Assembly: GCA_025360105.1 (NCBI GenBank) | Contig: JANYCT010000040.1 | Location: forward strand, 248,001 to 312,000 | Source of the DNA: Actinomycetes bacterium | GTDB lineage: Bacteria > Actinomycetota > Acidimicrobiia > Acidimicrobiales > Ilumatobacteraceae | Direction of reading: 5' to 3' | DNA length: 64,000 bases | Shown here: one piece after another, positions 3,134 to 63,502 of the stretch | Layout: every line of letters begins with the position of its first letter | Position numbering within the stretch: the first letter of the stretch is position 1 | Translations under genes and position numbers: made by a program | The notes under the pieces: generated by a model | Database searches by the model: none | Told to the model about the DNA's origin: nothing | What the model saw: only the letters and a program-made list of their open reading frames with translations

Positions 3134-4056
3134 CGCCGACCGATCCCGCCGACCTTCTCCTCGACGAGTTCGGTGGACCACGGAATTGCTTCGAGACGTT
3201 CCCGAGGGATGGGCTTCATCGAGATCGACGAAAAGCCATAGCTGCCGTTTGCAATGCGAGTCAGGGCGGCGTCGATCTCTGCGATGTCGTGGCGTGCCTG
3301 ATTCGACAGGGCGATGTCACGTTCACGTTCGACCACCATCGTGTCGCCCTCGCCGGATTCGTCGTCGAACTGCACATCGCCCATTTCATCGTCGATCAGC
3401 GAGAACGCTTCGTCCTCGAGTCGCACTGCCTGCCGGGTGAGCGATTCACGAGCTTCGAGCAGGGCCTTACGCTGCGATCCGAGGAACTTGACGTCGAAGT
3501 CCTTGGTGTATTTGATGCCATCTTTGGTTTCGCCCTTCACCGGAGGCAGGGTGGGCGCCGGAACGACCACCACGACCTTTTTAGCAGGGGCCTTCTTCAC
3601 GGGGGCTGGGGGAATGGGAGCAACGACGACCTTCGCCGGTGCTGCCTTGGGGGCAGCTTTCTTGACGGGCACAGGTACAGCCTTCTTGGGGGGGATTGGG
3701 GTGGCTGCGGTCGCAGCCTTTTTCGCGGGTGCAGCCTTGGTCGCGATCGGCACAGCCTTTTGGGCGGGCGCCGCTTTCTTTGCGGGTGCAGCCTTAGTCG
3801 CTACCGGCGCGGTCTTCTTGACCGGCGCGGCGTGCTTGGCTGGCGCGGTCTTCTTGACCGGCGCAGCATTCTTTGCAGGTACAGCCTTCGTCGCCACGGG
3901 CGCAGCCTTTTTTGCTGGCCCAGCCTTCGTCGCCACGGGCGCGGCTTTCTTTGCTGGCGCGGCTTTGGCGACAACCGGTGACGCCTTCTTGGCTGGCGCG
4001 GTCTTCTTCGCAACCGCTGCAGGCTTGTTGGTTGGGGCTACAACCTTCTTGGCCAT
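3130..4056 (-). CDS. DksA/TraR-like protein with Lys/Ala/Pro-rich N-terminal tail and no zinc cysteines
   Basis: A 308-aa protein in two parts. Residues 1 to about 165 are a low-complexity tail of Lys, Ala, Pro and Val repeats (units such as KKAAPVATKAAPA), like the DNA-binding tails of actinobacterial histone-like proteins. The last 140 residues match the DksA/TraR C-terminal plan: a long helical hairpin, then GSYGFSSISMKPIPRERLEA. In canonical proteins this reads YGxCxxCGxPIxxxRLxA with a second CxxC pair; all four cysteines are replaced here (Ser, Ser, Leu, Glu). The start at 4056 follows GGGAGG five bases upstream. DksA proteins bind RNA polymerase through its secondary channel; whether this one does is unknown. 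It lies between ileS and lspA. Confidence 0.8.
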   Translation of the reverse strand: MAKKVVAPTNKPAAVAKKTAPAKKASPVVAKAAPAKKAAPVATKAGPAKKAAPVATKAVPAKNAAPVKKTAPAKHAAPVKKTAPVATKAAPAKKAAPAQKAVPIATKAAPAKKAATAATPIPPKKAVPVPVKKAAPKAAPAKVVVAPIPPAPVKKAPAKKVVVVVPAPTLPPVKGETKDGIKYTKDFDVKFLGSQRKALLEARESLTRQAVRLEDEAFSLIDDEMGDVQFDDESGEGDTMVVERERDIALSNQARHDIAEIDAALTRIANGSYGFSSISMKPIPRERLEAIPWSTELVEEKVGGIGRR

Positions 4057-4224
4057 GAGGACCTCCCGATCGACCACAATTTCCGGAGCGTAGGCCGTCG
4101 GCAGCCCATCCCCAACGACCTTGGTCACTTTGCTGCAAAGAATGCCGCGAGAAACCGATGTGCTTGGGCAATATCGAGGGCCGTATTCACCGCAGGCGTG
4201 ACGGGAGAGTGCGCATCTGCACGT

Positions 4225-7200
4225 CTACGACTTGGCGACCCGTACAAGTACCGGCTCGCCATCAAGTTCAGCATCGAACTCGTTCATCTCGTCGTGGTCG
4301 CCCCATGCCAGCGACGTGGACAGCGTCTCACGCTGCACAAACGACACGTGATCGCTCAGTTGCTGACGAATCCGCTCGCTCGCCCATACCGTGAGAGCGA
4401 TGCGGTCGGCCACGTCGAGGCCGGCATCCCTGCGGGCCTGCTGGACGAGGCGCACCAGATCACGCGCAATGCCTTCGGCCACGAGCGCGGGGGTGAGTTC
4501 GATGTCGACGACTACTACTCCCCTGCCTCCCGGTAGCGCCGTGCTTGCTCCCCCAGCGGTCGCGACGAGCTTGAGCGAGTACTCGCCCTCCTGCAACGCG
4601 AAGCCACCGGCAACCACCGTGTCACCGTCGCGATGCCACTCACCGAGCTTGACTGCTTTGATGATCTGTTGGGTCTGTCCACCCAGCCGCGGTCCGAGCG
4701 CAGCGGGCACCACCTGCAACTCGCTGGTCGCCACAGCAGCTACGTTGCTGGTGAGCACCACCTGCTTCACATTGACCTCGTCGGCGATGAGATCGAGGTA
4801 GGGCACGAAGTCATCGCACGCGGGGTCAGCGATCGTGAGGGTTGCGAGGGGTTGACGAACCCGTCGCGAGTTCGCCTTGCGCACACTGAGTGTTGCCGAG
4901 CACACCTCACGAACGCGGTCCATTACATGGACGAGTGCCGGATCAGCCGGCAACGCAGCAGCTTCGGGCCAGTTCTCGAGGTGCACACTGCGGGCACCGG
5001 TGAGGCCCCGAAAAATGGCCTCACTGGTCAAGGGCAACAGCGGCGCCACCACCAGACACACGGTGCTGAGCACTGTGTGCAGCGTGTTCAGCGCCTCTTG
5101 GTCACCCTGCCAGAAACGTTCACGGCTACGCCGGATATACCAGTTCGTCAGCGCGTCGAGGAACGTACGCACTTCGCTACAGGCCAAGTACAGGTCGTAA
5201 GCATCCATATCAGACGTCACCCGCTCGACGAGTTCGCGAGTTTTGGCCAGGACATATCGGTCGAGCACGTTGGTCGAGTCGACGTCGAACGAACCCGCCT
5301 TGTGCTCGGCATTTGCGTACAGGGTGAGAAAGTACCAACTGTTCCACAACGGCAGGATCACTTGACGGACGGCTTCACGCATGCCGCTCTCGGTCACCGG
5401 CGCGTCGCCGCCGCGCAGGATCGCCGATGAAAGCAACGACCAACGCATCGCATCGGCTCCGTAGGTGTCGAAGACCTTCCACGGATCGGGATAGTTGCGC
5501 AGACTCTTCGACATCTTCTGGCCGTCGTCGCCGAGCAGAATGCCATGACTCACGCAGTTACGAAACGCCGGCCGATCGAACAGCGCCGTGGCAAGAACAT
5601 GCAATGTGTAGAACCAACCGCGAGTCTGATTGATGTATTCGACGATGAAGTCGCCCGGATAATGCGACTCGAACCACTCTCGATTTTCGAACGGGTAATG
5701 CACCTGGGCGAAGGGCATCGAACCACTCTCGAACCAGCAGTCGAGCACCTCGGGCACGCGACGCATCATCGACTGACCGGTGGGGTCATCGGGGTTGGGC
5801 CGAACGAGGTCATCGACCGCGGGCCGGTGCAGATCTGTGACCTCCACCCCGAAATCGCGTTGTAGCTCGGCAAGGCTGCCGTACACGTCGAGGCGCGGAT
5901 AGTTCGGATCGTCGCTCTTCCACACCGGGATGGGTGAACCCCAGAAGCGGTTGCGGCTGATACTCCAATCACGAGCGTTCGCCAACCACTTGCCGAACGA
6001 CCCATCTTTCACGTGACCCGGCACCCAATGGATCTGCTGGTTCAACTCCACCATCCGGTCGCGGATCTTGGTGACTTCGACGAACCACGATGAGATCGCC
6101 CGGTACACGAGCGGCTGCGCGCAGCGCCAGCAGTGCGGGTAGCTGTGGTCGTAGCTTTCATGGCGCATCACAACACCACGTTGTTTCAGCTCGCGGATCA
6201 CCAGCGGATTCGCGTCGAAAACGTGTTCGCCGACCCACGGCGTGACCTCGGCGGTATATCGACCGTGCTCGTCCATCGGGCACAGCGTTGGGATCCCAAC
6301 CGCGTTGCATGCGATCTGGTCGTCCTCGCCGAAACCCGGTGCCATGTGCACGATGCCTGTGCCGTCGTCGGTACTCACGAAGTCGGCGCCCAACACCTGA
6401 AACGCGTTGGGCGTATCTGCGAAGAAGTCGAACAGCGGCGTGTACATGCGTCCAACCAGATCGGCGCCGAGAACTGTGCCAACTCGAGTTGCATCGGCAA
6501 GTTCACGCTCGTATGCCTCGACTCGCGACGAAGCGAGCACATAACGCTTCCCGTCGGCATCCTGCATCACGGCGTATTCGATGTCGGGACCGACTGCGAG
6601 AGCGAGGTTGGCAGGAAGCGTCCACGGTGTGGTGGTCCAGGCGAGCAGGTACTCCCCCGAGTCGATCTCGAACGCAACGGTGAGTGCAGGGTCCTGACGA
6701 TCGCGATACACATCGTCCATACGTGTCTCGGTGTTGCTCAACGGCGTCTCACAACGCCAGCAATACGCAAGCACCTTGAAGCCTTCGTACACCAGGCCCT
6801 TGTCCCACAGCGTGCGGAAAGCCCACATCACGCTTTCCATGTAGGTCAGGTCGAGGGTCTTGTAGTCGTTGGCGAAATCGACCCATCGCGCCTGACGGCC
6901 AACGTAACGTTCCCACTCGCTCGTGTAGCGAAGCACGCTCGTGCGGCAGGCATCGTTGAACTTGTCGATGCCGAACTCGGTGATCTCGGGATGCCCGCTG
7001 ATGCCGAGTTCCTTCTCGGCCTCGACCTCGGCAGGAAGCCCGTGGCAATCCCATCCAAAGCGCCGTTCCACGCGTCGGCCGCGCATGGTCTGATATCGAG
7101 GCACGGCATCTTTCACATAGCCAGTCAGCAGGTGACCATAGTGCGGAAGGCCGTTGGCGAATGGAGGCCCGTCGTAAAAGATGTACTCGTTGTCGCTCAA

Positions 7201-7329
7201 GCCGGGATCACTGCCAGCGGGCCGCTGCTCGATACTCGCCGCGAAGGTCCGGTCAGCGTCCCAAAAGGCCTGAATACCCTGTTCGAGCACGGGCAGATTC
7301 GGTTGCGGTTCTACGGCGGGGTACGTCAC
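4225..7329 (-). CDS. ileS: isoleucyl-tRNA synthetase
   Basis: A 1034-aa class I synthetase that charges tRNA-Ile. The HIGH-type motif is HYGH at residues 63-66 inside [14 protein letters not shown], and the KMSKS loop is intact in [13 protein letters not shown]. Length, the [16 protein letters not shown] segment and the long C-terminal domain without a terminal zinc cluster fit the IleS2 (eukaryotic-like) type common in Actinobacteria, a type often naturally tolerant to mupirocin. The start is taken as the GTG at 7329, six bases after AGGAG. A TTG 60 bases further upstream lies inside the T-box and was rejected. Regulation is by the T-box at 7376-7545. Confidence 0.97.
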
Positions 7330-7375
7330 GGCTGCTCCTGTTGATGCACATTCGACCACAGTGATCGAGGTGTCC

Positions 7376-7545
7376 TCAGGGACGAGCAAATGCCCGCGGT
7401 GCCACCCTGCTTACCGTGGGCCGCAGCCACCGGTCACTCGCTTTCACCAGCAGTGACGGGCTGGTCCCGTTCGGTTCTACTGACACAACACGAACTGTGC
7501 ATTGCGCGTTCTTCCGAAGGCTCGGAGGTGATGGCCTCGTCACTG
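7376..7545 (-). promoter_or_regulatory. T-box riboswitch for ileS (translational type, ultrashort stem I)
   Basis: The 298-bp leader before ileS carries the parts of a T-box. GAGG (7538-7535) pairs with CCTC (7528-7525) around a loop holding the Ile specifier ATC at 7532-7530. A stem IIA/B pseudoknot follows: ACGGG (7470-7466) with CCCGT (7460-7456), and ACCAG (7465-7461) with CTGGT (7450-7446). The T-box bulge is AGGGTGGCACCGCGGGC from 7408; AGGG can pair with CCCT at 7381-7378. No terminator with a T-run follows, and the ribosome site AGGAG lies 40 bases further on, so control of translation initiation is inferred, as in actinobacterial ileS leaders. Uncharged tRNA-Ile would favour translation. 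Outer boundaries are approximate. Confidence 0.9.
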
Positions 7546-7627
7546 CCTTTGCGTGCAGGCTATCGGCCCGACGACGAGCCGACGCGGCATATGTGGCCGT
7601 GCCGGCTACACACGTGTCGGCGAGGCG

Positions 7628-8701
7628 TCAGGCCAGCTCGTCACCGAGGATGGTCAGATCGTTCGTCTGCGCGACACGGGTGGTCGGAAGTTCTTCTGTG
7701 ATGTCATCAACTTCTTCCAGACCGTCGAGCAGCGACGGCTCCGCACCCCCTTGTTCGGTGGGCCGACCGACCCAGATCGGGTCAAGTCCGGGCTCCGCGA
7801 TCGGGGTCAGCACCACGGGCTTGGGTGCCACCATCGGCACCAGCGTGTCGCCATGGCGCGGCATCACCATCGGAAGTGTCGCATCGTCGCCTGCACCCAA
7901 CTCGCCCCCGCTGGCCTCATCGTCGACTGGGTTCGCTCGGTGATCAGCAGCGGACGCGACGGGTGATTCGGATGCGCCGTCGAGACCTGCGTCGAGGCCC
8001 GACTCCGACGCTGCGCCGCCTGCATCAGCGCCAGTGTTGTCGCCGGGAGTTGACTCATCGTGAACCGCGGAGATAAGCGGGCGACGAACATCTCCCAGAC
8101 CACCGGGCACCTTGGCCACGATGTCGGTGAGGATGGCCGCAACCTCGCGCAAACGCTCGCGCTGGGTGACGATGTGTTGTTCGAGATGCTCGACGTCGCT
8201 GACCAAGAAATCGCGACGTGCGAGCAGGGCCTGGACCTCGCTCTCGACCTGCACCCGCTGACCCTCCGCGGCTCGGCGGGCCTCGACTTTGGATTCCTCG
8301 ATGAGCCGATTCACGATCTCTTGCGCGCCGTCAACGAGGGACTGCGCCTCGTGCTCGGCATCCGCGGCGATACGTGCAGCCTCAGCGTTGGCATCGTTCA
8401 CGGTGGCATCGGCGGTGCGCTGGGCGAGTAGCAGGGTGCGGCTGATGTTTTCTGCATCGGGCGACGCCACAGCAGGTGCGGGCTCCGCCGGGCGCTCGGG
8501 CTCGGTCGGAGCTTGTGCCGACAGTTCCTGCAAACGCGCGATTGCCGCGCGTGCTCGAGCCTCCATCGCCGATGCCTGATTTTGGGTGGCCTCGATGGAC
8601 GCAGCGAGGTCGGTCAGGTACGACTTCACCTGTTGGGGGTCGTAGCCCTTCTTGACGATCTTGAAGGTTGTGCTCGAAACAGACTGTGGGCTCAATTCCA
8701 T
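7628..8701 (-). CDS. divIVA: DivIVA-domain cell division / polar growth protein
   Basis: A 357-aa coiled-coil protein. The N-terminal membrane-binding DivIVA segment is residues 1-40 (TTFKIVKKGYDPQQVKSYL), followed by long Ala/Glu/Arg-rich heptads (about 45-75 and 110-215) and an acidic, disordered C-terminal third. DivIVA/Wag31 proteins gather at curved membranes and organise polar or septal wall growth in Actinobacteria. It follows sepF in the usual order, although the small membrane protein gene ylmG that often lies between them is absent. The ATG at 8701 is chosen because the conserved domain starts there; eleven upstream in-frame residues have no family match. Confidence 0.92.
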   Translation of the reverse strand: MELSPQSVSSTTFKIVKKGYDPQQVKSYLTDLAASIEATQNQASAMEARARAAIARLQELSAQAPTEPERPAEPAPAVASPDAENISRTLLLAQRTADATVNDANAEAARIAADAEHEAQSLVDGAQEIVNRLIEESKVEARRAAEGQRVQVESEVQALLARRDFLVSDVEHLEQHIVTQRERLREVAAILTDIVAKVPGGLGDVRRPLISAVHDESTPGDNTGADAGGAASESGLDAGLDGASESPVASAADHRANPVDDEASGGELGAGDDATLPMVMPRHGDTLVPMVAPKPVVLTPIAEPGLDPIWVGRPTEQGGAEPSLLDGLEEVDDITEELPTTRVAQTNDLTILGDELA

Positions 8702-53284: not shown

Positions 53285-54928
53285 ATGCAACGTACGTTCG
53301 ATGACCTTGGCTCGCCCCTCTGCGACGTCACCTTCTGTGTGATCGACCTCGAAACGACCGGCGGCAATCGCAACACCGATGTCATCACCGAGGTCGGCGC
53401 GATCAAGGTGCGCGGCGGTGCATGCCTGGGCACGTTCCAGACGCTGGTCAATCCGGGTCGGGCGATTCCCCCCACGATCACCATGCTCACGGGTATTTCC
53501 GATGCGATGGTGTTGCCCGCCCCCCGCATCGAGGGGGTGCTCGTGTCGCTGCTCGAGTTCTGTGGTGACGCTGTGATCGTGGGCCACAACGTTCGGTTCG
53601 ATGTGGGTTTCCTCAACGCCGCGCTCGCCCGCGCCGACCGACCAACACTCAAGAACGCAACCGTCGATACAGTGGCACTCGCGCGGCGCCTGGTGCGCGA
53701 CGAGGTGCCCGATTGCCGCCTCGGAACGCTGGCCAGCCGGTTCCGACTCGATCATCAACCCAGCCACCGCGCCCTCGACGACGCCCTCGCCACCGCAGAC
53801 TTGTTGCACCTGCTCATCGAGCGCGCTGCGGCGTTCGGCGTCATGGGACTCGACGATCTGCACCTGCTGCCCAAGATCGGCGGCCACCCGCAGGTGGCCA
53901 AGCTGAAGCTCACCAACCACCTGCCGCGCACGCCGGGCGTCTATCTGTTTCACGATGCACGCGACGAGGTGCTCTACGTCGGCAAAGCCACCAACCTTCG
54001 CCAGCGCGTACGCAGCTACTTCGGGAGCGAGGATCGTCGCAAGATCGGCCCGATGCTGCGCGAGGCCCACCGCGTGTCGCATATCGAGACGCCCGATCCA
54101 CTCACCGCTGGTGTGCTCGAGCTGCGCTACCTGCATCAGCTCACGCCCCGCTACAACAAACAAGGCACCACGTGGGATCGCTATTGCTACGTCCGGCTGT
54201 CCACCGACGAAGCCTGGCCACGGCTCGCCATCGTCAAAGACCCATCACCACATGGACTGCACATCGGACCACTCCCGTCGCGCACCATGGCCACACTGGT
54301 GGTCGAAGCCATCCAGACCGTGGTGCCGCTGCGGCGCTGCACCGCCCGACTCGGCCGCAAGCACATGCCGTCACCCGATGCGTCACCGTGCACCGCGTCA
54401 CAACTGGGCGTGGCCGAGTGTCCGTGTGCGGGCGTGGCCGATGCCAGTCGCTACGCGTCAGCGGTCGACATGGTGTTGCGCGGACTCGGCCACGAACCCG
54501 ATGTGCTCCTCGATCCGCTCAGAGAGCGCATGGTCACCTTAGCCTGCGCTCAGCGCTACGAGGAAGCTGCGTCCGTTCGCGATCGCGCCCAAGCGCTCGC
54601 CGGTGCCATCCGCCGACAGCGCATGATCGACGACCTCCGCGGCGCACAACGGCTCGATCTGCAGGTCGGCGAAGTGGTGTTCCACGTTGATCATGGTCGC
54701 CTCCTCGACGCCCACATTCGTGGCACGCTCACCGCAGCGCTGCCACTGCCGCCGCCCGCCGTGGCACCCCTCGATCGCCCACTGCCGCGCCAAGCCGCCG
54801 ACGAAACGCTCTGCATTGCGCGATTCATCGAGGCCAACAGCCACCGCATCACGCTGTTGCACTGCGACGGCCCCTATAGCCAGCCGCTTGCGCCCTTGCC
54901 CTCGTTTGAACAACGCAAGGCGGCGTAA
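53285..54928 (+). CDS. DEDDh exonuclease fused to a UvrC/Cho-like GIY-YIG nuclease
   Basis: A 547-aa two-domain DNA repair protein. Residues 1-180 are a DnaQ-type 3'-5' exonuclease with FCVIDLETTGG (first Asp, Glu), VGHNVRFDVGF and HRALDDALATADLL (His, Asp). Residues 215-300 are GIY-YIG: HLPRTPGVYLFHDARDEVLY, VGKATNLRQRVRSYF. A C-terminal region has an UVR-like helix pair (CAQRYEEAASVRDRAQAL) but not the UvrC RNase H domain. Homologues such as mycobacterial Rv2191 have the same layout. The LexA box makes DNA-damage induction very likely. Convergent with thrB, 4 bases apart. Confidence 0.93.
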   Translation: MQRTFDDLGSPLCDVTFCVIDLETTGGNRNTDVITEVGAIKVRGGACLGTFQTLVNPGRAIPPTITMLTGISDAMVLPAPRIEGVLVSLLEFCGDAVIVGHNVRFDVGFLNAALARADRPTLKNATVDTVALARRLVRDEVPDCRLGTLASRFRLDHQPSHRALDDALATADLLHLLIERAAAFGVMGLDDLHLLPKIGGHPQVAKLKLTNHLPRTPGVYLFHDARDEVLYVGKATNLRQRVRSYFGSEDRRKIGPMLREAHRVSHIETPDPLTAGVLELRYLHQLTPRYNKQGTTWDRYCYVRLSTDEAWPRLAIVKDPSPHGLHIGPLPSRTMATLVVEAIQTVVPLRRCTARLGRKHMPSPDASPCTASQLGVAECPCAGVADASRYASAVDMVLRGLGHEPDVLLDPLRERMVTLACAQRYEEAASVRDRAQALAGAIRRQRMIDDLRGAQRLDLQVGEVVFHVDHGRLLDAHIRGTLTAALPLPPPAVAPLDRPLPRQAADETLCIARFIEANSHRITLLHCDGPYSQPLAPLPSFEQRKAA

Positions 54929-57250: not shown

Positions 57251-57895
57251 CTACGGACGCAGATCGCGCAGTAATTCGGCCACCGTGGCCGCAGTGAGCT
57301 CGCTTGCTTCGAGATATCTCGGGTGGTCGATCACTAGACGTGCTGTTCCATCGGCGATTCCCTGCGACAAAACCTGAACCTGGCCCGGCTCGAACGCGAA
57401 CTGCAGATAATGAACCGCGCTGGTGATGTTGGCACGGGTGAGCTGGCTCGCATGCTGGGCCTCGGGGTACGAGCGCACTTCGCTCCCGTCTGGCAGCCGA
57501 ATCACCACATGGCGCTCGATGCCGACCAGGCGCGGCAGCCACTCGCGCATCGCGTCGTCGGAGGTGAGCTCGATGAAGAGCGTCGCGCACAGCTGACCAG
57601 CTTCGGGTACGAGCGGGTTGTAGGTGTCGATCTCGTTCTGGATGTCGTCGTCGGTCATCAACTTCTCGACGCGGGCCATCTCCTGGATCTGATAGCGGAT
57701 CGTCTCGCGCGATTCGAACGACACCGTGATGACGGTTCCGACCGCGATACGACGGATGCGACGCAGATCGAGGACCCGATCACGAAACTCAGCCCGCTCA
57801 CGCTCGTACGCGCGCACATCGGCGATATCGCTGAGCGTGAGCTTGCGGCTCGCGCCGTGAGCGGCGAGGTTGTTTGCGGTTGGAGACGCAGTCAT
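57251..57895 (-). CDS. DUF3501 family protein
   Basis: A 214-aa soluble protein. The N-terminal half matches DUF3501: KLTLSDIADVRAYERERAEF, RRIRRIAVGTVITVSFESRE and RYQIQEMARVEKLM, then TYNPLVPEAGQLCATLFIE. No catalytic residues are obvious. The family is uncharacterised and, as far as I know, often neighbours rubrerythrin and HdrD/GlpC-like Fe-S proteins, as here. ATG 57895 overlaps the Fe-S protein stop as ATGA. Last gene of the operon. Confidence 0.85.
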   Translation of the reverse strand: MTASPTANNLAAHGASRKLTLSDIADVRAYERERAEFRDRVLDLRRIRRIAVGTVITVSFESRETIRYQIQEMARVEKLMTDDDIQNEIDTYNPLVPEAGQLCATLFIELTSDDAMREWLPRLVGIERHVVIRLPDGSEVRSYPEAQHASQLTRANITSAVHYLQFAFEPGQVQVLSQGIADGTARLVIDHPRYLEASELTAATVAELLRDLRP

Positions 57896-59205
57896 CTCGG
57901 GGCCTCTTCGACAGCAATGCCATAGGCGCGCGCCATCACCTGGATCGGGTGCAGTGGCACGCTGCCTGTCTGTTCAGTGATGGCGGTGTTCGCCAGATGA
58001 CAGTCACCGGCAACGACCTCGCTGTTTGCCCGCGTGATCTCGTCGCCGAGCTTCTTTGCAATCGGCACCGAGATGGAAGCGTTCTCGGCGCGCAGGCCCC
58101 ACATGCCATCGATGCCGCTGCATTGCTGAACCAACTTGATCTTGGCACCGGTGAGCTTCATCAGATCGCGGCTTTTCAGACCGATGTTCTGCGCACGCAG
58201 ATGACACGGCGTGTGATAGGTGATGGTCTCGGGAACGTGACCCTCGAACTCGGTGACGAGCATCGTTCCCTCACCCCGGTGCACCTTCATCAGGAACTCG
58301 GCAGCGTCATAGGTGTTGGCAGCAACGAGTGCGGCATCGGCCCCCCCAACATAATCGAGATAGTCCTTCTTCAACACATAGCCACAGGTGGGTTGGGGCA
58401 CCACGATGTCGTTGCCCTTGCGAACCTCGGCGGCAAGGATCTTCACGTTCTTGGCGGCAGCCTTGGCGAACTCGGCCATGTTGCCACTGTGCAACCACGG
58501 CGCACCGCAACAACCTGCGTCGGCGAGCGACACCTCGATGCCATTTCGTTCGTACACCTTCACGAGATCGTGGCCGATGCCGGGCTCCTGATACTCCACG
58601 AGGCAGGTGGGGAACAGCGCCACGCGACCCTGACGCTTCCCGATACGAATTTTGGGACGATGGTTGAACCACGTGGAGAAGCGCTGCTTCGCGAACGGAG
58701 GCAGCAGGCGCACGGCGGAAACGCCGGCTGTCTTTTCGATGACTTTGCGTACGAGGCTGTTCGGCTTGGCGCCCATTGCTTTGTTCATCAATGGTGCGGC
58801 GGCGCTGCCCACCGTGCCGAGTAGATCGGTGCGACCCATCATCTGCGTGGTGGCCCGGTCGCGCAGTGGCGTGTGACCGTTCTCGTGCAGCATCGCGTCG
58901 GCGCGCAGCATCAGCCGCGGGAAATCAAGCTCCCACTCGTGCTGACCCGGCACGTACGGGCAGTTCACATAACACAACTTGCATTGGAAACATTCGTCGA
59001 TGACCTGATCCTGTTGGGCCGGCGTGAGCCGACCCGCGTCCTGATCGTCATGTCGGTCGATCATCTCGAACAACGTGGGAAACGACGTGCAGAACTTGAA
59101 GCACAGGCGGCAGCCGTGGCACAGGTCGTAGACCCGCGTCAGTTCGTCGCGAACATCGGCCTCGTCGAGGTACTTGGGATGGAATGGGTCATAGGTGATG
59201 GTCAT
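57892..59205 (-). CDS. GlpC/HdrD-like Fe-S oxidoreductase subunit
   Basis: A 437-aa protein. Two ferredoxin-type 4Fe-4S motifs lie at residues 29-39 ([11 protein letters not shown]) and 72-83 ([12 protein letters not shown]). Two CCG-type half domains follow: [28 protein letters not shown] and SGIDGMWG, the pattern of heterodisulfide-reductase D and glycerol-3-phosphate dehydrogenase subunit C. No flavin or membrane segment is seen. It could take electrons to rubrerythrin or act on disulfides; neither is shown. Coupled to DUF3501 and 67 bases after rubrerythrin. Confidence 0.88.
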
Positions 59206-59272
59206 CGAATTGCCTCGAATCGCTGCGCAGGCACGATACGCCCGCGCAGCGATTCAGTCGGAGGGGCTGGAC

Positions 59273-59689
59273 TCAGGACAGGCTGTCGAGGCCTTGCTGG
59301 AAACGACCAGCATGGCTCTTTTCCGCGCGGGCCAGCGTCTCGAACCAATCGGCGATCTCGCCGAATCCCTCGTCGCGGGCGGTCTTGGCAAACCCGGGAT
59401 ACATCTGCGTGTACTCATAAGTCTCGCCGGCGATGCTCGCCTTGAAGTTGTCCTCGGTCTCACCAATGGGCTCACCCGTCGCGGGGTCGCCGACCTGGGC
59501 GAGGTACTCGAGGTGGCCATGCGCATGACCGGTCTCGCCCTCGGCCACCGAACGGAACAGCATCGCTGCGTCGGGGTATCCCTCGATGTCTGCCTTCTGA
59601 GCGAACCACAGGTAACGGCGGTTTGCCTGGCTCTCACCGGCAAAGGCCTCCTTGAGGTTCTCGTGTGTCTTTGTACCTTCCAGGCTCAT
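59273..59689 (-). CDS. rubrerythrin-like diiron protein (no rubredoxin domain)
   Basis: A 138-aa ferritin-like four-helix protein. Diiron ligands are suggested in [52 protein letters not shown] and [11 protein letters not shown]. The C-terminal rubredoxin domain of classical rubrerythrin is absent, so an external electron donor is needed, possibly the next gene's Fe-S protein. Rubrerythrins reduce hydrogen peroxide. The ATG overlaps the Fur-family gene stop (ATGA) and has AAGGAG upstream. Confidence 0.92.
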
Positions 59690-60171
59690 GACTGGCTCCT
59701 TGTTGCTGTCTCAATGGTTGATGAAGAGGTCGAAATTCGGCTGCGGTCAGCGGCTGGCGCATTGCGGCAGGCACCGCATTCGCCGCGAAACACGATGTCG
59801 GTGGAGGCCACGACGAAGTCGTGCTGATCGTCCACCCTCAATCGATCTGCACCCTCGGCGTAAATGTCGGCGACATCGCCGCACGTCGTGCACAACAGAT
59901 GGTGATGTGCGTCCACGTTCGGGTCGAACCGTGTCGCCCCGGATCCGAAATCAAATGACTGTAGCTCGCCCATCGCGGCGAGGTCGGTAAGGGTTTGATA
60001 CACGGTGCGCAACGAGATGCCCGGCATCTGCGAACTCGCCAGCTCGAACAGCGCGTCGGCCGTGGGGTGCGTGGAGGTGTCGTGCAACAGACGGAACAGC
60101 AGCTGGCGTTGTGGGGTGACCTTGAGGCCCATCGACCGGAACTCGGCGTTGAGTTCGGTGGGGCTACGCAC
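59686..60171 (-). CDS. Fur/PerR-family metalloregulator
   Basis: A 161-aa regulator. LKVTPQRQLLFRLLHD and ISLRTVYQTLTDLAAMGELQ form the winged helix; DAHHHLLCTTCGDVADI and CGACR carry the metal-binding His and two CxxC structural zinc pairs. Leading an operon with rubrerythrin, a PerR-like peroxide sensor is the best guess, though Fur or Zur specificity is not excluded. The last 20 residues are Ser/Thr-rich. GTG 60171; TACAGT lies seven bases upstream and is overlapped by a palindrome, suggesting autoregulation. Confidence 0.88.
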   Translation of the reverse strand: MRSPTELNAEFRSMGLKVTPQRQLLFRLLHDTSTHPTADALFELASSQMPGISLRTVYQTLTDLAAMGELQSFDFGSGATRFDPNVDAHHHLLCTTCGDVADIYAEGADRLRVDDQHDFVVASTDIVFRGECGACRNAPAADRSRISTSSSTIETATRSQS

Positions 60172-60178
60172 CTGAGTG

Positions 60179-60220
60179 ACTGTATTCGCATCTGATGCAG
60201 ATCTACAAGTTGTGCGAATA
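60179..60220 (-). promoter_or_regulatory. promoter and palindromic operator of the Fur-rubrerythrin operon
   Basis: TACAGT (60184-60179) is a -10 candidate seven bases before the GTG, with TTGTAG (60208-60203) as -35 at 18-bp spacing. TATTCGCA (60183-60190) is mirrored by TGCGAATA (60213-60220), bracketing the promoter core. Such an arrangement is typical of autorepression, here probably by the encoded Fur-family protein. Confidence 0.55.
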
Positions 60221-60302: not shown

Positions 60303-62018
60303 ATGAATCCTGTTCCGATCGACAACGCGTTCGATCGATCCGCGATGCTGGATCGACTCGCTGCGGAGACCTTTGACATCGTGGTCGTCGGCGGCGGCAT
60401 CACCGGCGTGGGCGTTGCGCTCGACGCGGCGAGCCGCGGACTGCGCACGGCGTTGGTCGAGCGCGACGACTTTGCCTCGGGCACGTCGTCGAAGAGTTCG
60501 AAGCTGGTGCACGGTGGTCTGCGCTACCTCCAACAGGGCGAGGTGCGCCTGGTGTACGAAGCACTGCACGAACGCCAACGCCTCCGCAAGAACGCGCCAC
60601 ATCTCGTGCGGGTGATGCCCTTCATGATCCCCATCCTTACCAAGGACGGGCTCATCCCACCGAAGATCGCGCGGGTGCTCGGCACCTCGATGTGGATGTA
60701 CGACCTCACCGGCGGATGGCGAATCGGTAAGTTGCACAAGCGACTCAAAAAGCAGGCGGCCGTCAAGCACCTGCCCACCATGCCGGAGGCACGTTTGGCT
60801 TCGGCGTATCTGTACTACGACGCAAGCGCCGACGATGCCCGGCTATGCCTGACGGTGGCACGAACCGCCGCGGCCCATGGAGCCGCCGTCGCAAACGCAT
60901 GCGCCGTCGTAGGCATCAGCACCGATGCCGACACCGGTCGCGCGAACGGAGTGGTGGTCAACGCCGATGGTCGCGAGATTCGCGTACGCGCCTCGGTGGT
61001 GGTGAATGCAGCTGGTGTCTGGGCCGACGATGTACGCGCCCTTGCCGAGAACGCCCACCCAGACTCCATCCGGCCCGCCAAAGGTGTGCACATCACGGTT
61101 CCGTGGCACAAGGTGCGCAACGACATCGCCGTCGTGATCCCCGTGCCCAAGGACAAGCGCAGCCTGTTCGTGGTGCCCTGGGGCCCCAAGCCCGACGGCA
61201 CGTTCCAACACGCGTACGTAGGCACCACCGACACTGATTTCAATGGCGATGTCGATGACCCGCAATGCACCAAGGACGACATTGCCTACGTGCTTCGTGC
61301 GCTCAATGCTGCGGTGACCACGGGCATCACCGAATCCGATGTCACCGGTGTGTGGGCCGGCTTGCGCCCGCTCGTGAAGGCGGCCACATCTGGGCGCACC
61401 GCCGACCTGTCGCGCCGGCACAGCATCACCACCAACGATGCCTGCGTCATCAGCGTCACCGGCGGCAAGCTCACCACGTATCGCGAGATGGCCGAGCACA
61501 GCGTCGATGCCGCGCTCGAGCAACTCGGCCGGCGTGCACGATGCCGTACAAAATCGCTCAAGCTGCTCGGCGCGGCCGGCTTTCGCGAGCTCGACGCCGA
61601 CTCCCCCGACGCCCACCTCGCTTCACGATTCGGTGGCGAGATGACTGCGCTCAAAACGCTGATCGCCGGCGACACATCGCTGGGCGAGCCACTCGTCGAG
61701 GGACTCCCCTATGTGCGCGCCGAGGCGGTCTACGCCGTGCGATACGAGATGGCACTCACGCTCGACGACGTGCTGACCCGCCGCACCCGGGCGCGGCTCT
61801 TCGACCGCAATGCCACCGTCGCTGCCGCCGTCTCTGTGGCTGCACTCATCGCACCCGAACTCGGCTGGGACTCGTCCGAACAACAACGCCAGATCGACGC
61901 GTTCGTCGCGAGTTGCGCGCACGAAGCCGCCGCTGCACACCTCGGCGAAGCCGAACTCAACGCGACATCCGCCGCAACGGTCACGCACACGCCGGTATCA
62001 ACAGAGGCCCGTTCATGA
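60303..62018 (+). CDS. glpD: aerobic glycerol-3-phosphate dehydrogenase
   Basis: A 571-aa FAD enzyme oxidising glycerol-3-phosphate to DHAP and passing electrons to quinone. The FAD dinucleotide fold is IVVVGGGITGVGVALDAASR, followed by ERDDFASGTSSKSSKLVHGG and RYLQQGEVRLVYEAL; GGKLTTYREMAE is the late signature. The C-terminal cap domain is present. TAGGAT lies eight bases before the ATG. It works with glycerol kinase (42961). Confidence 0.96.
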   Translation: MNPVPIDNAFDRSAMLDRLAAETFDIVVVGGGITGVGVALDAASRGLRTALVERDDFASGTSSKSSKLVHGGLRYLQQGEVRLVYEALHERQRLRKNAPHLVRVMPFMIPILTKDGLIPPKIARVLGTSMWMYDLTGGWRIGKLHKRLKKQAAVKHLPTMPEARLASAYLYYDASADDARLCLTVARTAAAHGAAVANACAVVGISTDADTGRANGVVVNADGREIRVRASVVVNAAGVWADDVRALAENAHPDSIRPAKGVHITVPWHKVRNDIAVVIPVPKDKRSLFVVPWGPKPDGTFQHAYVGTTDTDFNGDVDDPQCTKDDIAYVLRALNAAVTTGITESDVTGVWAGLRPLVKAATSGRTADLSRRHSITTNDACVISVTGGKLTTYREMAEHSVDAALEQLGRRARCRTKSLKLLGAAGFRELDADSPDAHLASRFGGEMTALKTLIAGDTSLGEPLVEGLPYVRAEAVYAVRYEMALTLDDVLTRRTRARLFDRNATVAAAVSVAALIAPELGWDSSEQQRQIDAFVASCAHEAAAAHLGEAELNATSAATVTHTPVSTEARS

Positions 62019-63502
62019 CTCACGCCACCCCACCCATCGAGCTCACCGGAACAGCCGAACACTTCGCCGGTCATTCCGTCGCTCTGGGCAATGACTTCAT
62101 CGAGGCGCTGCACGCCGTATGTCCTACCGACGTGAGCATCGAGACCACTGCCGACGTCAGCCGAGATTGGTGGCCGATGTCGATGCACTGGGCACTCGCC
62201 GGCGAGGTGCCGCGCCGCGCCGGTGCCGTGGTGCGCCCTGCCAGCACCGCGCAGGTCAGCGATGTAGCGCGGCTCTGCAACACCGCCAAGGTTCCGCTCA
62301 CTGTCGCCGGCGGACGGTCCGGGGTCTGCGGCGCCAGCGTTCCCGTCTTCGGAGGCGTACTGCTCGACATAACCGCCATGCAGGGCATCGTGTCAGTCGA
62401 CGATGTTTCCGGCGTGGTGCACGTACTGCCGGGCACGTTCGGTCCCGATCTCGAAAACGAACTCCGCTCCCACCACGCACTCACCGTCGGTCACTTCCCC
62501 CAGAGCTTCGACATCGCCACGGTCGGCGGCTGGGTGGCATGTCGCGGTGCCGGCCAGTACAGCACCCGCTACGGCACGATCGAAGACATGGTCGCAGGGC
62601 TCGAGGTCGTTCTCGCCGACGGGCGAGTGATCACCACCGGCGGCAGCCCCGCGGCAGCGATGGGCCCCGATCTCACCCAGCTGTTCCTCGGGTCAGAGGG
62701 CACGATGGGAATCATCACCCAGGTGTCGTTGCGTGCCCATCCGGTGCCACCCGAGGGGCGTCGCACGGCGTATGCGTTCGCCACATTCGAAGACGGACTC
62801 GAGGCATGCCGCCAGATCATCCGGCGTGGCGCCACGCCTGCCGTACTTCGTTTGTACGACGCGGCCGAGTCAGCACGCGGGCAGGGTGGCGACGGCACAC
62901 AGAACATGTTGCTCGTGCTCGACGAAGGCGACCCCGCGATCATCGACGCGGTCATGACCGTCGTCGACGACGTGGCTTGTGCCTTCGCGGCCTCGAATCT
63001 CGGCTCGTCACTCGTCGACGGGTGGATGCATCACCGCAACGACACCAGCGCTCTCCAAGCCCTCACGCGCAAGGGTTTCGTGGTCGACACGCTCGAGATC
63101 GCTGCACCGTGGTCGAAGCTCGGCGACATTTTCAACGCAGTGCGCGCGGCGATGCTGGCGGTGCCACACGCCCGGGCCGCCACCTGCCACCTGAGCCACA
63201 GTTACCTCGATGGCGCCTGCCTGTACTTCACCTTTGCGGCAACGCCACCGCCGCACGAGGTGGAGGCCACCTATGTGGCGCTGTGGGACGCCGGCCAGCG
63301 CGCCGTCCTTGCGCACGGCGGCAATCTGTCGCATCACCACGGCATCGGCATCAACCGTGGTCGCTTCATGGCCGAGGCATTGGGACCCGCGCACGACGTG
63401 CTCGTCGCGCTCAAACACACGCTCGACCCCAACGGCATCCTCAACCCCACCAAGTTGGCATTGCCATCGCCGTTCGGCCCTTCACCGTGGCCGACGGCAT
63501 GA
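62015..63502 (+). CDS. FAD-linked oxidase, alkyl-DHAP synthase-like
   Basis: A 495-aa flavoprotein with a PCMH-type FAD domain (VVRPASTAQVSDVARLCN, PLTVAGGRSGVCG) and PQSFDIATVGGWVACRGAG followed by STRYGTIEDMV, a motif shared with alkylglycerone-phosphate synthase. The C-terminal GNLSHHHGIGINR resembles the His-rich active-site loop of that enzyme. It uses DHAP esters to build ether lipids in eukaryotes; in bacteria many relatives oxidise 2-hydroxy acids. Downstream of glpD (a DHAP source) an ether-lipid or DHAP-linked role is plausible. ATGA overlaps on both sides. Confidence 0.8.
   Translation: MTHATPPIELTGTAEHFAGHSVALGNDFIEALHAVCPTDVSIETTADVSRDWWPMSMHWALAGEVPRRAGAVVRPASTAQVSDVARLCNTAKVPLTVAGGRSGVCGASVPVFGGVLLDITAMQGIVSVDDVSGVVHVLPGTFGPDLENELRSHHALTVGHFPQSFDIATVGGWVACRGAGQYSTRYGTIEDMVAGLEVVLADGRVITTGGSPAAAMGPDLTQLFLGSEGTMGIITQVSLRAHPVPPEGRRTAYAFATFEDGLEACRQIIRRGATPAVLRLYDAAESARGQGGDGTQNMLLVLDEGDPAIIDAVMTVVDDVACAFAASNLGSSLVDGWMHHRNDTSALQALTRKGFVVDTLEIAAPWSKLGDIFNAVRAAMLAVPHARAATCHLSHSYLDGACLYFTFAATPPPHEVEATYVALWDAGQRAVLAHGGNLSHHHGIGINRGRFMAEALGPAHDVLVALKHTLDPNGILNPTKLALPSPFGPSPWPTA

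Follow-up and report, generated by a model that had tools for sequence, protein, structure and literature searches.

A PerR-like regulator with its own predicted operator leads an aerobic-type rubrerythrin operon in which DUF3501 appears to be the near-constant partner

The aerobic-type rubrerythrin system joins three co-located families, a rubredoxin-less rubrerythrin, the Fe-S protein RFO and DUF3501, and was published in 2016 with the Fe-S partner already named (PMC5114695). Its rubrerythrin tree takes in Actinobacteria such as Acidithrix and Ferrimicrobium. All three families were reported in 185 organisms, against 25 with rubrerythrin and DUF3501 alone, and RFO absence was named for Thermoproteales and some Deltaproteobacteria (PMC5114695). 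The main text of that paper contains no whole-word Fur, PerR or regulator, and in the portions of the literature searched the trio was not found with a neighbouring gene for Fur or PerR. A PerR-like gene ahead of rubrerythrin, with a predicted 19-bp palindromic site, is described in excerpts of a 2004 study of Desulfovibrio and Geobacter perR-rbr operons (PMC545781). Those operons carry rubredoxin or rubredoxin-oxygen oxidoreductase genes (rdl, roo), whereas RFO and DUF3501 were not found in the same excerpts.

The locus described here lies in a window of 64,000 nucleotides, the whole stretch of DNA that was analysed, where four minus-strand genes span 57251–60171 in the order fur, rbr, RFO and DUF3501. 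The fur/rbr and RFO/DUF3501 junctions are ATGA overlaps, and a 67-bp gap separates rbr from RFO. The initial annotation had read these co-directional genes as a tight unit with 4-base ATGA overlaps at two of three junctions, a description that the coordinates, gene order and Pfam families uphold. The arrangement is recurrent in Acidimicrobiia and is thus more than chance. The accompanying label of an uncharacterised operon had to be given up, the trio having been published and DUF3501 treated in several papers (including PMC5114695), while the reading as peroxide or redox defence gained support. With DUF3501 and a COG0247-type RFO co-located beside a rubredoxin-less rubrerythrin, the operon is by its predicted proteins the known aerobic-type system in outline. 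It differs in being led by a PerR-like gene with its own predicted operator, and in that RFO comes and goes repeatedly within the window's order. The glpD gene lies divergent from the operon and whiB downstream of it; neither was found at the Geothrix or Burkholderia loci by tblastn, and a functional link of either to the operon was therefore dropped.

The first gene encodes a PerR-like Fur-family regulator of 161 residues with a GTG start (59686–60171, minus strand; PF01475 FUR, 7e-23), whose best PDB match is the "Peroxide operon regulator" 2fe3 (1.2e-17). Its H35, D83, H89, H91 and D102 are invariant in 27/27 aligned sequences and align with His37, Asp85, His91, His93 and Asp104 of B. subtilis PerR, which we take to be that protein's metal ligands. 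The cysteines C94, C97, C132 and C135 are also invariant (27/27). PerR-type proteins carry Asp where Glu is expected of Fur. Because the protein scores 101.7 bits against the NCBIfam PerR model, below the 180-bit cut-off, it is named PerR-like rather than PerR. As judged from its residues, it is a PerR-like regulator with an invariant PerR-type Asp, new for the aerobic-type rubrerythrin system, and the ligand set and predicted operator support the metal- or peroxide-type regulation proposed initially. The window genome has four Fur-family genes, and another of them lies directly upstream of katG, an arrangement also represented by the mycobacterial furA-katG pair. Similarly, in genome G069 the orthologous fur stands upstream of katG with the same operator; the KatG encoded there shares 67% identity with that of the window genome. 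In contrast, the window regulator leads rubrerythrin and is a paralogue separate from the katG-linked Fur, with which it shares 29% identity.

The palindrome noted over the promoter of the first gene is real, occupying 60179–60220 with 8-bp outer arms TATTCGCA/TGCGAATA. The most fitting description is a pair of 19-bp inverted repeats that overlap, offset from each other by 17 bp (ATYYGCA-N5-TGCRRAT). Predicted operator site 1, ATTCGCACAACTTGTAGAT (60201–60219, minus strand; −48 from the fur start), has one mismatch to ATYYGCANNNNNTGCRRAT, and predicted site 2, ATCTGCATCAGATGCGAAT (60184–60202, minus strand; −31), has none and is the sole zero-mismatch site in the 3.89-Mb genome. As expected of PerR, a palindromic operator is thereby predicted at the regulator's own promoter. 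The repeats abut a −10-like element, TACAGT (60179–60184, minus strand), at −13 from the GTG. Among the regions upstream of 46 fur genes, a set that includes L078, a duplicate of L013, 31 have a TANNNT element at −13 and 6 have one at −12. Since the −10-like TACAGT lies only 13 nt ahead of the GTG, a leaderless fur mRNA is suggested; a sigma-70 scan gave no hits. In Geobacter, too, the predicted site overlaps a candidate −10 element according to excerpts of PMC545781, and by eye the order-wide ATCAACAATCGTTGTTGAT looks similar to the site AtCAGTAATtGTTACTGgT given there for D. vulgaris.

Conservation supports the predicted operator within the regulator family. A site with at most two mismatches is present in 30/30 upstream regions, the same regions from which the pattern was derived and which leave out L032 and L034 as too distant, vs 0.5% of Markov shuffles. 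Among held-out fur loci of the same family, counted without L078 because it duplicates L013, 5/5 keep a site within one mismatch at −46 to −48, against a background of 1 in 593,239 positions; outside the family, 0/8 fur loci have one within two mismatches. Across the order, an inverted repeat with at least 6 of 7 pairs is found at −56 to −28 in 24/70 loci vs 4.8% of shuffles preserving base composition only, and in 5/70, 6/70 and 8/70 in three control intervals; the remaining 46/70 loci have no such strong repeat at −56 to −28. The window genome holds at least 115 places with up to two mismatches to the site, compared with 42 for the reversed pattern, and with the perfect site unique a proven wide regulon was rejected. 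Among the matches listed, nine one-mismatch sites do not belong to the fur promoter; a crude ORF filter places four of them within predicted ORFs and five elsewhere, and one one-mismatch site precedes a predicted ORF by about 37 bp. The regulon may therefore be wider than the operon.

The rbr product is an aerobic-type rubrerythrin of 138 residues (59273–59689, minus strand; PF02915 Rubrerythrin, 4e-28). As previously annotated, it lacks a rubredoxin domain: the chain has one domain, contains no cysteine and carries EXXH motifs at 52–55 and 123–126. E19, E52, H55, E92, E123 and H126 are invariant in an 86-row alignment. Its nearest PDB chains are 9onm and 4di0, the latter a B. pseudomallei protein (PMC5114695), with sulerythrin 1j30 lower down. 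The related, rubredoxin-less ferriperoxin of Hydrogenobacter acts as a peroxidase in vitro with NADPH and FNR, and its loss stops aerobic growth (PMC3317640). In Sulfolobus, a cluster with rubrerythrin and a COG0247 gene is up-regulated by H2O2, although two of three rubrerythrin protein spots went down while mRNA went up (PMC2739297).

The last gene encodes a DUF3501 protein of 214 residues (57251–57895, minus strand; PF12007, 4.4e-55). Its solved homologue is 3fjv (E 2.5e-27), and the predicted model (pLDDT 93) matches it with Z 25.3. A clear fold relative beyond 3fjv was rejected: for the remaining VIA rows Z does not exceed 7.1, a range called common, and no function was therefore read from them. 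A phage search returned no DUF3501 match and a plasmid search returned matches in 4 Burkholderia replicons only, two of which, on inspection, had no annotated features at the matches.

A neighbourhood survey indicates which partner stays with rubrerythrin. DUF3501 occurs in 16/396 sampled Actinomycetota genomes and in 16/16 adjoins rubrerythrin or lies one gene off with RFO between, so the contrary case entertained initially, that the two are rarely neighbours, failed. Within the order, 94/248 genomes have a Fur match; the locus tally drew on 80 of these, leaving out 11 others plus G512, G434 and G417. It comprises 65 complete Fur-rubrerythrin loci, 5 cut by a contig end, 3 in which fur stands beside katG (one divergent), 6 with Fur and neither rubrerythrin nor KatG, and 1 cut at a contig edge. 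In the 65 complete loci, a tally conditional on a Fur match, DUF3501 is present in 65 and RFO in 43. The 22 RFO-less genomes, several of them incomplete MAGs (completeness 79–97%), gave no RFO match above 73.6 bits, 11 having no match and 11 weak matches only. RFO presence changed at least 4 times counting starred branches, or 11 times by parsimony on a "quick" tree; these counts do not separate gain from loss and take in both members of the pairs L130 (G487)/L033 (G396) and L178/L032, each apparently one genome with identical rows. As DUF3501 is found in 65/65 loci while RFO is missing from 22/65, DUF3501, not RFO, is on these gene contents the near-constant partner of rubrerythrin. It is not strictly required, since G145 has rubrerythrin and RFO without DUF3501 or Fur.

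Gene order, conservation, the predicted operator, the PerR-type ligands, the repeated absence of RFO and the near-constancy of DUF3501 together make it probable that a PerR-type repressor controls, and is autoregulated with, an aerobic-type rubrerythrin module for peroxide defence. We infer the metal, peroxide sensing, repression, the electron route and the role of DUF3501 as follows. At rest, two dimers of the metal-loaded regulator would occupy the overlapping 19-bp operators, blocking the fur promoter; peroxide would oxidise the regulator, and the operon would be transcribed. The di-iron rubrerythrin would then turn H2O2 or organic peroxides into water or alcohol by reduction. Its near-constant partner DUF3501 would probably serve as a docking or maturation subunit. 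RFO would be an optional relay that holds two [4Fe-4S] clusters and a CCG centre in an architecture resembling EtfD's soluble portion and draws electrons from a pool linked to quinol or a flavoprotein. Where RFO is absent, general reductants such as ferredoxin/FNR may feed rubrerythrin. A more tentative extension, plausible although we would not lean on it, is that DUF3501 stands in for the lost rubredoxin domain, binding the one-domain rubrerythrin and making general reductants usable (or loading or protecting the di-iron site), with RFO as a plug-in donor.

That the regulator instead senses iron (Fur), manganese or zinc (Zur), with the operon serving iron handling, is unlikely: membership of the Fur superfamily, the ferritin-like nature of rubrerythrins and the four Fur-family genes in the genome would fit, but D102 in place of Fur's expected Glu (27/27), PerR as the closest solved relative and the katG linkage argue against such a sensor. 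It is likewise improbable that the Fe-S protein is a dedicated and necessary donor that DUF3501 merely assists. The electron-relay architecture of RFO, its ATGA overlap with DUF3501, the RFO-DUF3501 fusions in Nitrosomonas (PMC5114695) and the presence of RFO with rubrerythrin in 13/16 DUF3501-bearing Actinomycetota genomes speak for it. However, rubrerythrin and DUF3501 stay together in G374, G284 and G396, where RFO was not found, and in G382, which has 29–33% hits only; the 22 RFO-less loci belong to genomes with no close homologue found, and ferriperoxin works with FNR in vitro (PMC3317640). The Fe-S protein as the obvious donor of a self-contained system, as first proposed, was thus not sustained.

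RFO itself is a GlpC/HdrB/EtfD-like Fe-S protein of 437 residues (57892–59205, minus strand; Pfam CCG, 1e-19). Like EtfD, HdrB and GlpC, it has two N-terminal [4Fe-4S] motifs (eight Cys) followed by CCG halves. Of the two 4Fe-4S and two CCG half domains annotated initially, the [4Fe-4S] pair and the first half (C201/C232/C233/C274) stand, whereas the second (C334/C362/C402) is degenerate and Pfam detects one CCG domain (195–279). This second half lacks the CC and CxxC of GlpC, reading CxLA in 33/33 sequences where E. coli GlpC has CxxC, and RFO stays under the cut-offs that NCBIfam sets for GlpC, at 234.8 against 278 bits and 164.9 against 279.9. It also differs from these relatives in having no membrane domain. 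The predicted model (pLDDT 92) matches EtfD 9ojn along nearly the whole chain (VIA Z 22.5, residues 5–431). Its resemblance to HdrB 5odc_B (Z 20.4) would suit a disulfide reductase acting on a low-molecular-weight disulfide rather than a relay to rubrerythrin, a role we regard as very doubtful. In HdrB, catalysis involves one bridging cysteine per half, Cys81 and Cys234 (PMC13083937). The Cys81 counterpart is kept in RFO (C274, 33/33), but Cys234 is replaced by Ala405 in 33/33, the second Cys of the second CC by Ser in 28/33, and residue 271, the counterpart of Cys78, is never Cys. Owing to these replacements a two-cluster HdrB mechanism looks unlikely, while other thiol chemistry may occur.

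The trio of aerobic-type rubrerythrin, RFO and DUF3501 is widely distributed, and according to excerpts of PMC7050145 it is predicted to be mitochondrial in several protists and has been proposed for the LECA mitochondrion. The present survey offers natural comparisons, namely sister loci with and without RFO and one without DUF3501. Together with the mapped predicted operator, these allow direct tests of how electrons reach rubrerythrin and of what DUF3501 does.

The operon is real and conserved. It consists of four minus-strand genes: a fur-like gene (60171-59686), a rubrerythrin (rbr, 59689-59273), the GlpC/HdrB/EtfD-like Fe-S protein RFO (59205-57892) and DUF3501 (57895-57251). The coordinates confirm the two ATGA overlaps of the initial annotation, at the fur/rbr and RFO/DUF3501 junctions, and 67 bp separate rbr from the RFO gene. 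A divergent glpD-like gene (60303-62018) lies upstream of fur, whiB (57087-56848) and then trpD (56830-55769) lie downstream of DUF3501, and glpD / fur-rbr-RFO-DUF3501-whiB-trpD recurs as a block in Acidimicrobiia. A same-strand Fur homologue stands just 5' of rubrerythrin in 31 of 40 DUF3501-bearing loci, the nine without Fur being L006, L023, L024, L029 (contig edge), L028 and four Geothrix loci. The WhiB-family gene, an Fe-S regulator, is placed between DUF3501 and trpD in many Acidimicrobiia loci. Within 60303-63502 the glpD-like gene is followed by one that resembles an FAD-linked oxidase by eye, and an ORF at 53285-54928, its translation judged by eye, resembles a 3'-5' exonuclease with a UvrC-like GIY-YIG part behind it. 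Three Acidimicrobiia-type loci (L007, L010, L011) come from MAG records titled Bifidobacterium breve, titles that look wrong.

Across genomes, RFO appears optional and DUF3501 nearly constant beside rubrerythrin. In a neighbourhood survey set as a test beforehand, DUF3501 occurred in 16 of 396 Actinomycetota genomes and rubrerythrin was nearby in all 16, with DUF3501 adjoining it or coming after it with RFO between. RFO was present in 13 of the 16, and a same-strand leading Fur homologue also in 13 (window counted), Fur being divergent at one locus (L087) and missing at two (L084, L086). Close rubrerythrins (at least 74% identity) were found in 17 genomes of the same draw of 396; the seventeenth, a 1.7-Mb genome (G145; L101, 6484-8207), carries rubrerythrin and RFO with neither DUF3501 nor Fur there, the reverse of the usual pattern in that RFO is kept and DUF3501 absent.

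A regulator search matched 94 of 248 genomes of the order. Eighty Fur loci were fetched, 65 of them Fur-rubrerythrin loci with enough contig; in this tally, conditional on a Fur match, DUF3501 was present at 65/65 and RFO at 43/65. Whole-genome searches for RFO in the 22 RFO-less genomes returned nothing in 11, and in the remaining 11 the best score was 73.6 bits (25-31% identity); two positive controls scored 611 and 655 bits. RFO had no match in G374, G284 and G396, the last apparently the same genome as G487, already in the 22-genome search, and G382 gave only 29-33% matches. On a tree built from Fur, rubrerythrin and DUF3501 (86 rows, 60 with RFO), which does not distinguish loss from gain, RFO presence needs 11 changes, at least four of them forced by starred branches, and two supported sister pairs differ in RFO (L105/L111, L106/L113). 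The Fe-S protein had been proposed as the electron donor of rubrerythrin; its absence at 22 of 65 loci, together with the 22-genome search, makes an obligatory role unlikely. With DUF3501 at every one of these loci, its partner would be something besides RFO, most simply rubrerythrin itself.

The RFO model (pLDDT 92) aligns with LutA (9a6l; Z 24.3, rmsd 2.0, 222 residues), M. smegmatis EtfD (Z 22.5, rmsd 3.5, 354 residues) and HdrB (5odc_B; Z 20.4, rmsd 2.6, 233 residues). In the text available from PMC13083937, EtfD connects ETF to menaquinone, and Cys81 and Cys234 are the bridging catalytic cysteines of HdrB. Invariant in 33/33 RFO sequences are eight N-terminal cysteines (two [4Fe-4S]), four cysteines in CCG half 1 (C201/C232/C233/C274) and three in half 2 (C334/C362/C402). 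The two CCG halves originally described thus stand for half 1, but half 2 is incomplete: residue 363, aligned with the final Cys of CC pair 2, is Ser in 28/33, and CxLA replaces the terminal CxxC of E. coli GlpC. By profile alignment, the counterpart of HdrB Cys81 is kept (C274), that of Cys78 is residue 271 (Gln, Asn or Ile) and that of Cys234 is Ala405 in 33/33. This residue pattern predicts that one HdrB-type centre out of two is crippled, so an electron relay fits better than HdrB two-cluster disulfide chemistry; RFO may alternatively perform other thiol chemistry. The DUF3501 model has 3fjv, a solved homologue, as its sole clear match in the fold search (Z 25.3, rmsd 1.7, 191 residues). 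Neither Cys nor His appears among its residues invariant in 40/40 (Y30, R34, R48, F60, T65, Q69, E72, M73, E77, Y92, T105, V161, D211), giving no sign that DUF3501 itself carries an Fe-S or His-rich metal site.

Among solved structures, the regulator is closest to PerR (2fe3, E 1.2e-17), a peroxide operon regulator. Homologues from these loci keep, in 27/27, the residues at the PerR metal-ligand positions, including an Asp at the D104 position, and four cysteines. Its score against the NCBIfam PerR model, 101.7 bits, falls below the 180-bit curated cut-off, and we therefore term it PerR-like. Three further Fur-family genes occur in the window genome, one of them directly 5' of katG (G000:C28:29210-31865; L060, L104) and 29% identical to the operon regulator; no PF00199 catalase was found there. 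G069 belongs to the same family, and its syntenic locus L102 (G069:C12:18000-30000, 3231-7721) reads fur-katG-rubrerythrin-like-RFO-like-whiB-trpD, with identities of 55% for fur, 67% for katG (to the window genome's KatG), 56% for the rubrerythrin-like gene and 31% for the degenerate RFO-like gene; a search of that genome found no DUF3501. katG also lies beside fur in 3 of 80 further Fur loci (two same strand, one divergent, at 43% Fur identity). These neighbourhoods link the regulator to peroxide.

The palindrome noted over the fur promoter (60179-60220) breaks down into a pair of 19-bp inverted repeats that overlap (ATYYGCA-N5-TGCRRAT), located at -48 and -31 relative to the start of fur. 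The best putative operator in 30 upstream regions had 0 mismatches in 4, 1 in 20 and 2 in 6, a count that is circular because the pattern was derived from those sequences; 0.5% of order-1 Markov shuffles reached 2 mismatches and none fewer. The pattern was also checked on five same-family fur loci held out from its derivation: L081, L085, L088, L089 and L102, the one with fur-katG. All five carried the site at -46 to -48 with no more than 1 mismatch, against a background of 1 in 593,239 positions. Out-of-family fur loci gave 0/8 within 2 mismatches (L076, L077, L079, L080, L082, L083, L087, L090). Where fur is missing, L084 keeps a 2-mismatch palindrome 116 bp 5' of rubrerythrin, and L028, L086 and L101 show no match within 3 mismatches. 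Order-wide and independently of sequence, an inverted repeat with at least 6 of 7 pairs occurs at -56 to -28 in 24/70 loci; the corresponding figure is 4.8% for shuffles, and three equally wide intervals elsewhere gave 5, 6 and 8 of 70. Several order loci have ATCAACAAT-N-RTTGTTGAT at this repeat; judged by eye, this is similar to the PerR site predicted for D. vulgaris perR-rbr-rdl in the portion of PMC545781 available. A TANNNT hexamer at -13 (31/46 fur upstream regions) or -12 (6/46) indicates that the fur mRNA is probably leaderless, placing the predicted operators over the core promoter, as would be expected of a repressor. Relative to the divergent glpD-like gene, these operators stand about 84-119 bp upstream of its start, and an effect on that gene as well is conceivable. 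A zero-mismatch site occurs once in the window genome; the regulator may have a wider regulon.

The operon had been called uncharacterised, which does not hold: the available text of Cardenas et al. 2016 (PMC5114695) describes the rubrerythrin-RFO-DUF3501 cluster, names RFO, counts 185 genomes with all three genes and 25 with rubrerythrin-DUF3501 alone, and leaves open the electron route to rubrerythrin in RFO-less genomes. Further sources, as excerpted, predict the trio to be mitochondrial in Andalucia (PMC7050145) and place oxyR next to it in Sideroxydans (PMC7852563). Ferriperoxin of Hydrogenobacter, a rubredoxin-less rubrerythrin-like protein, has FNR-dependent peroxidase activity and its disruptant shows no aerobic growth, according to the accessible part of PMC3317640, which supports a function of the trio in peroxide defence. 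In the Sulfolobus solfataricus microarray, as excerpted from PMC2739297, H2O2 raised a cluster holding the rubrerythrin SSO2642 and the COG0247 gene SSO2643, with SSO2643 up 5.2-fold and SSO2644, by its position probably DUF3501, up 6.7-fold; one of three rubrerythrin protein spots rose and two fell. The trio is thus already known, and what the present locus and its relatives add is a PerR-like leader with its operator, a form of the locus that includes katG, and the finding that RFO is repeatedly missing.
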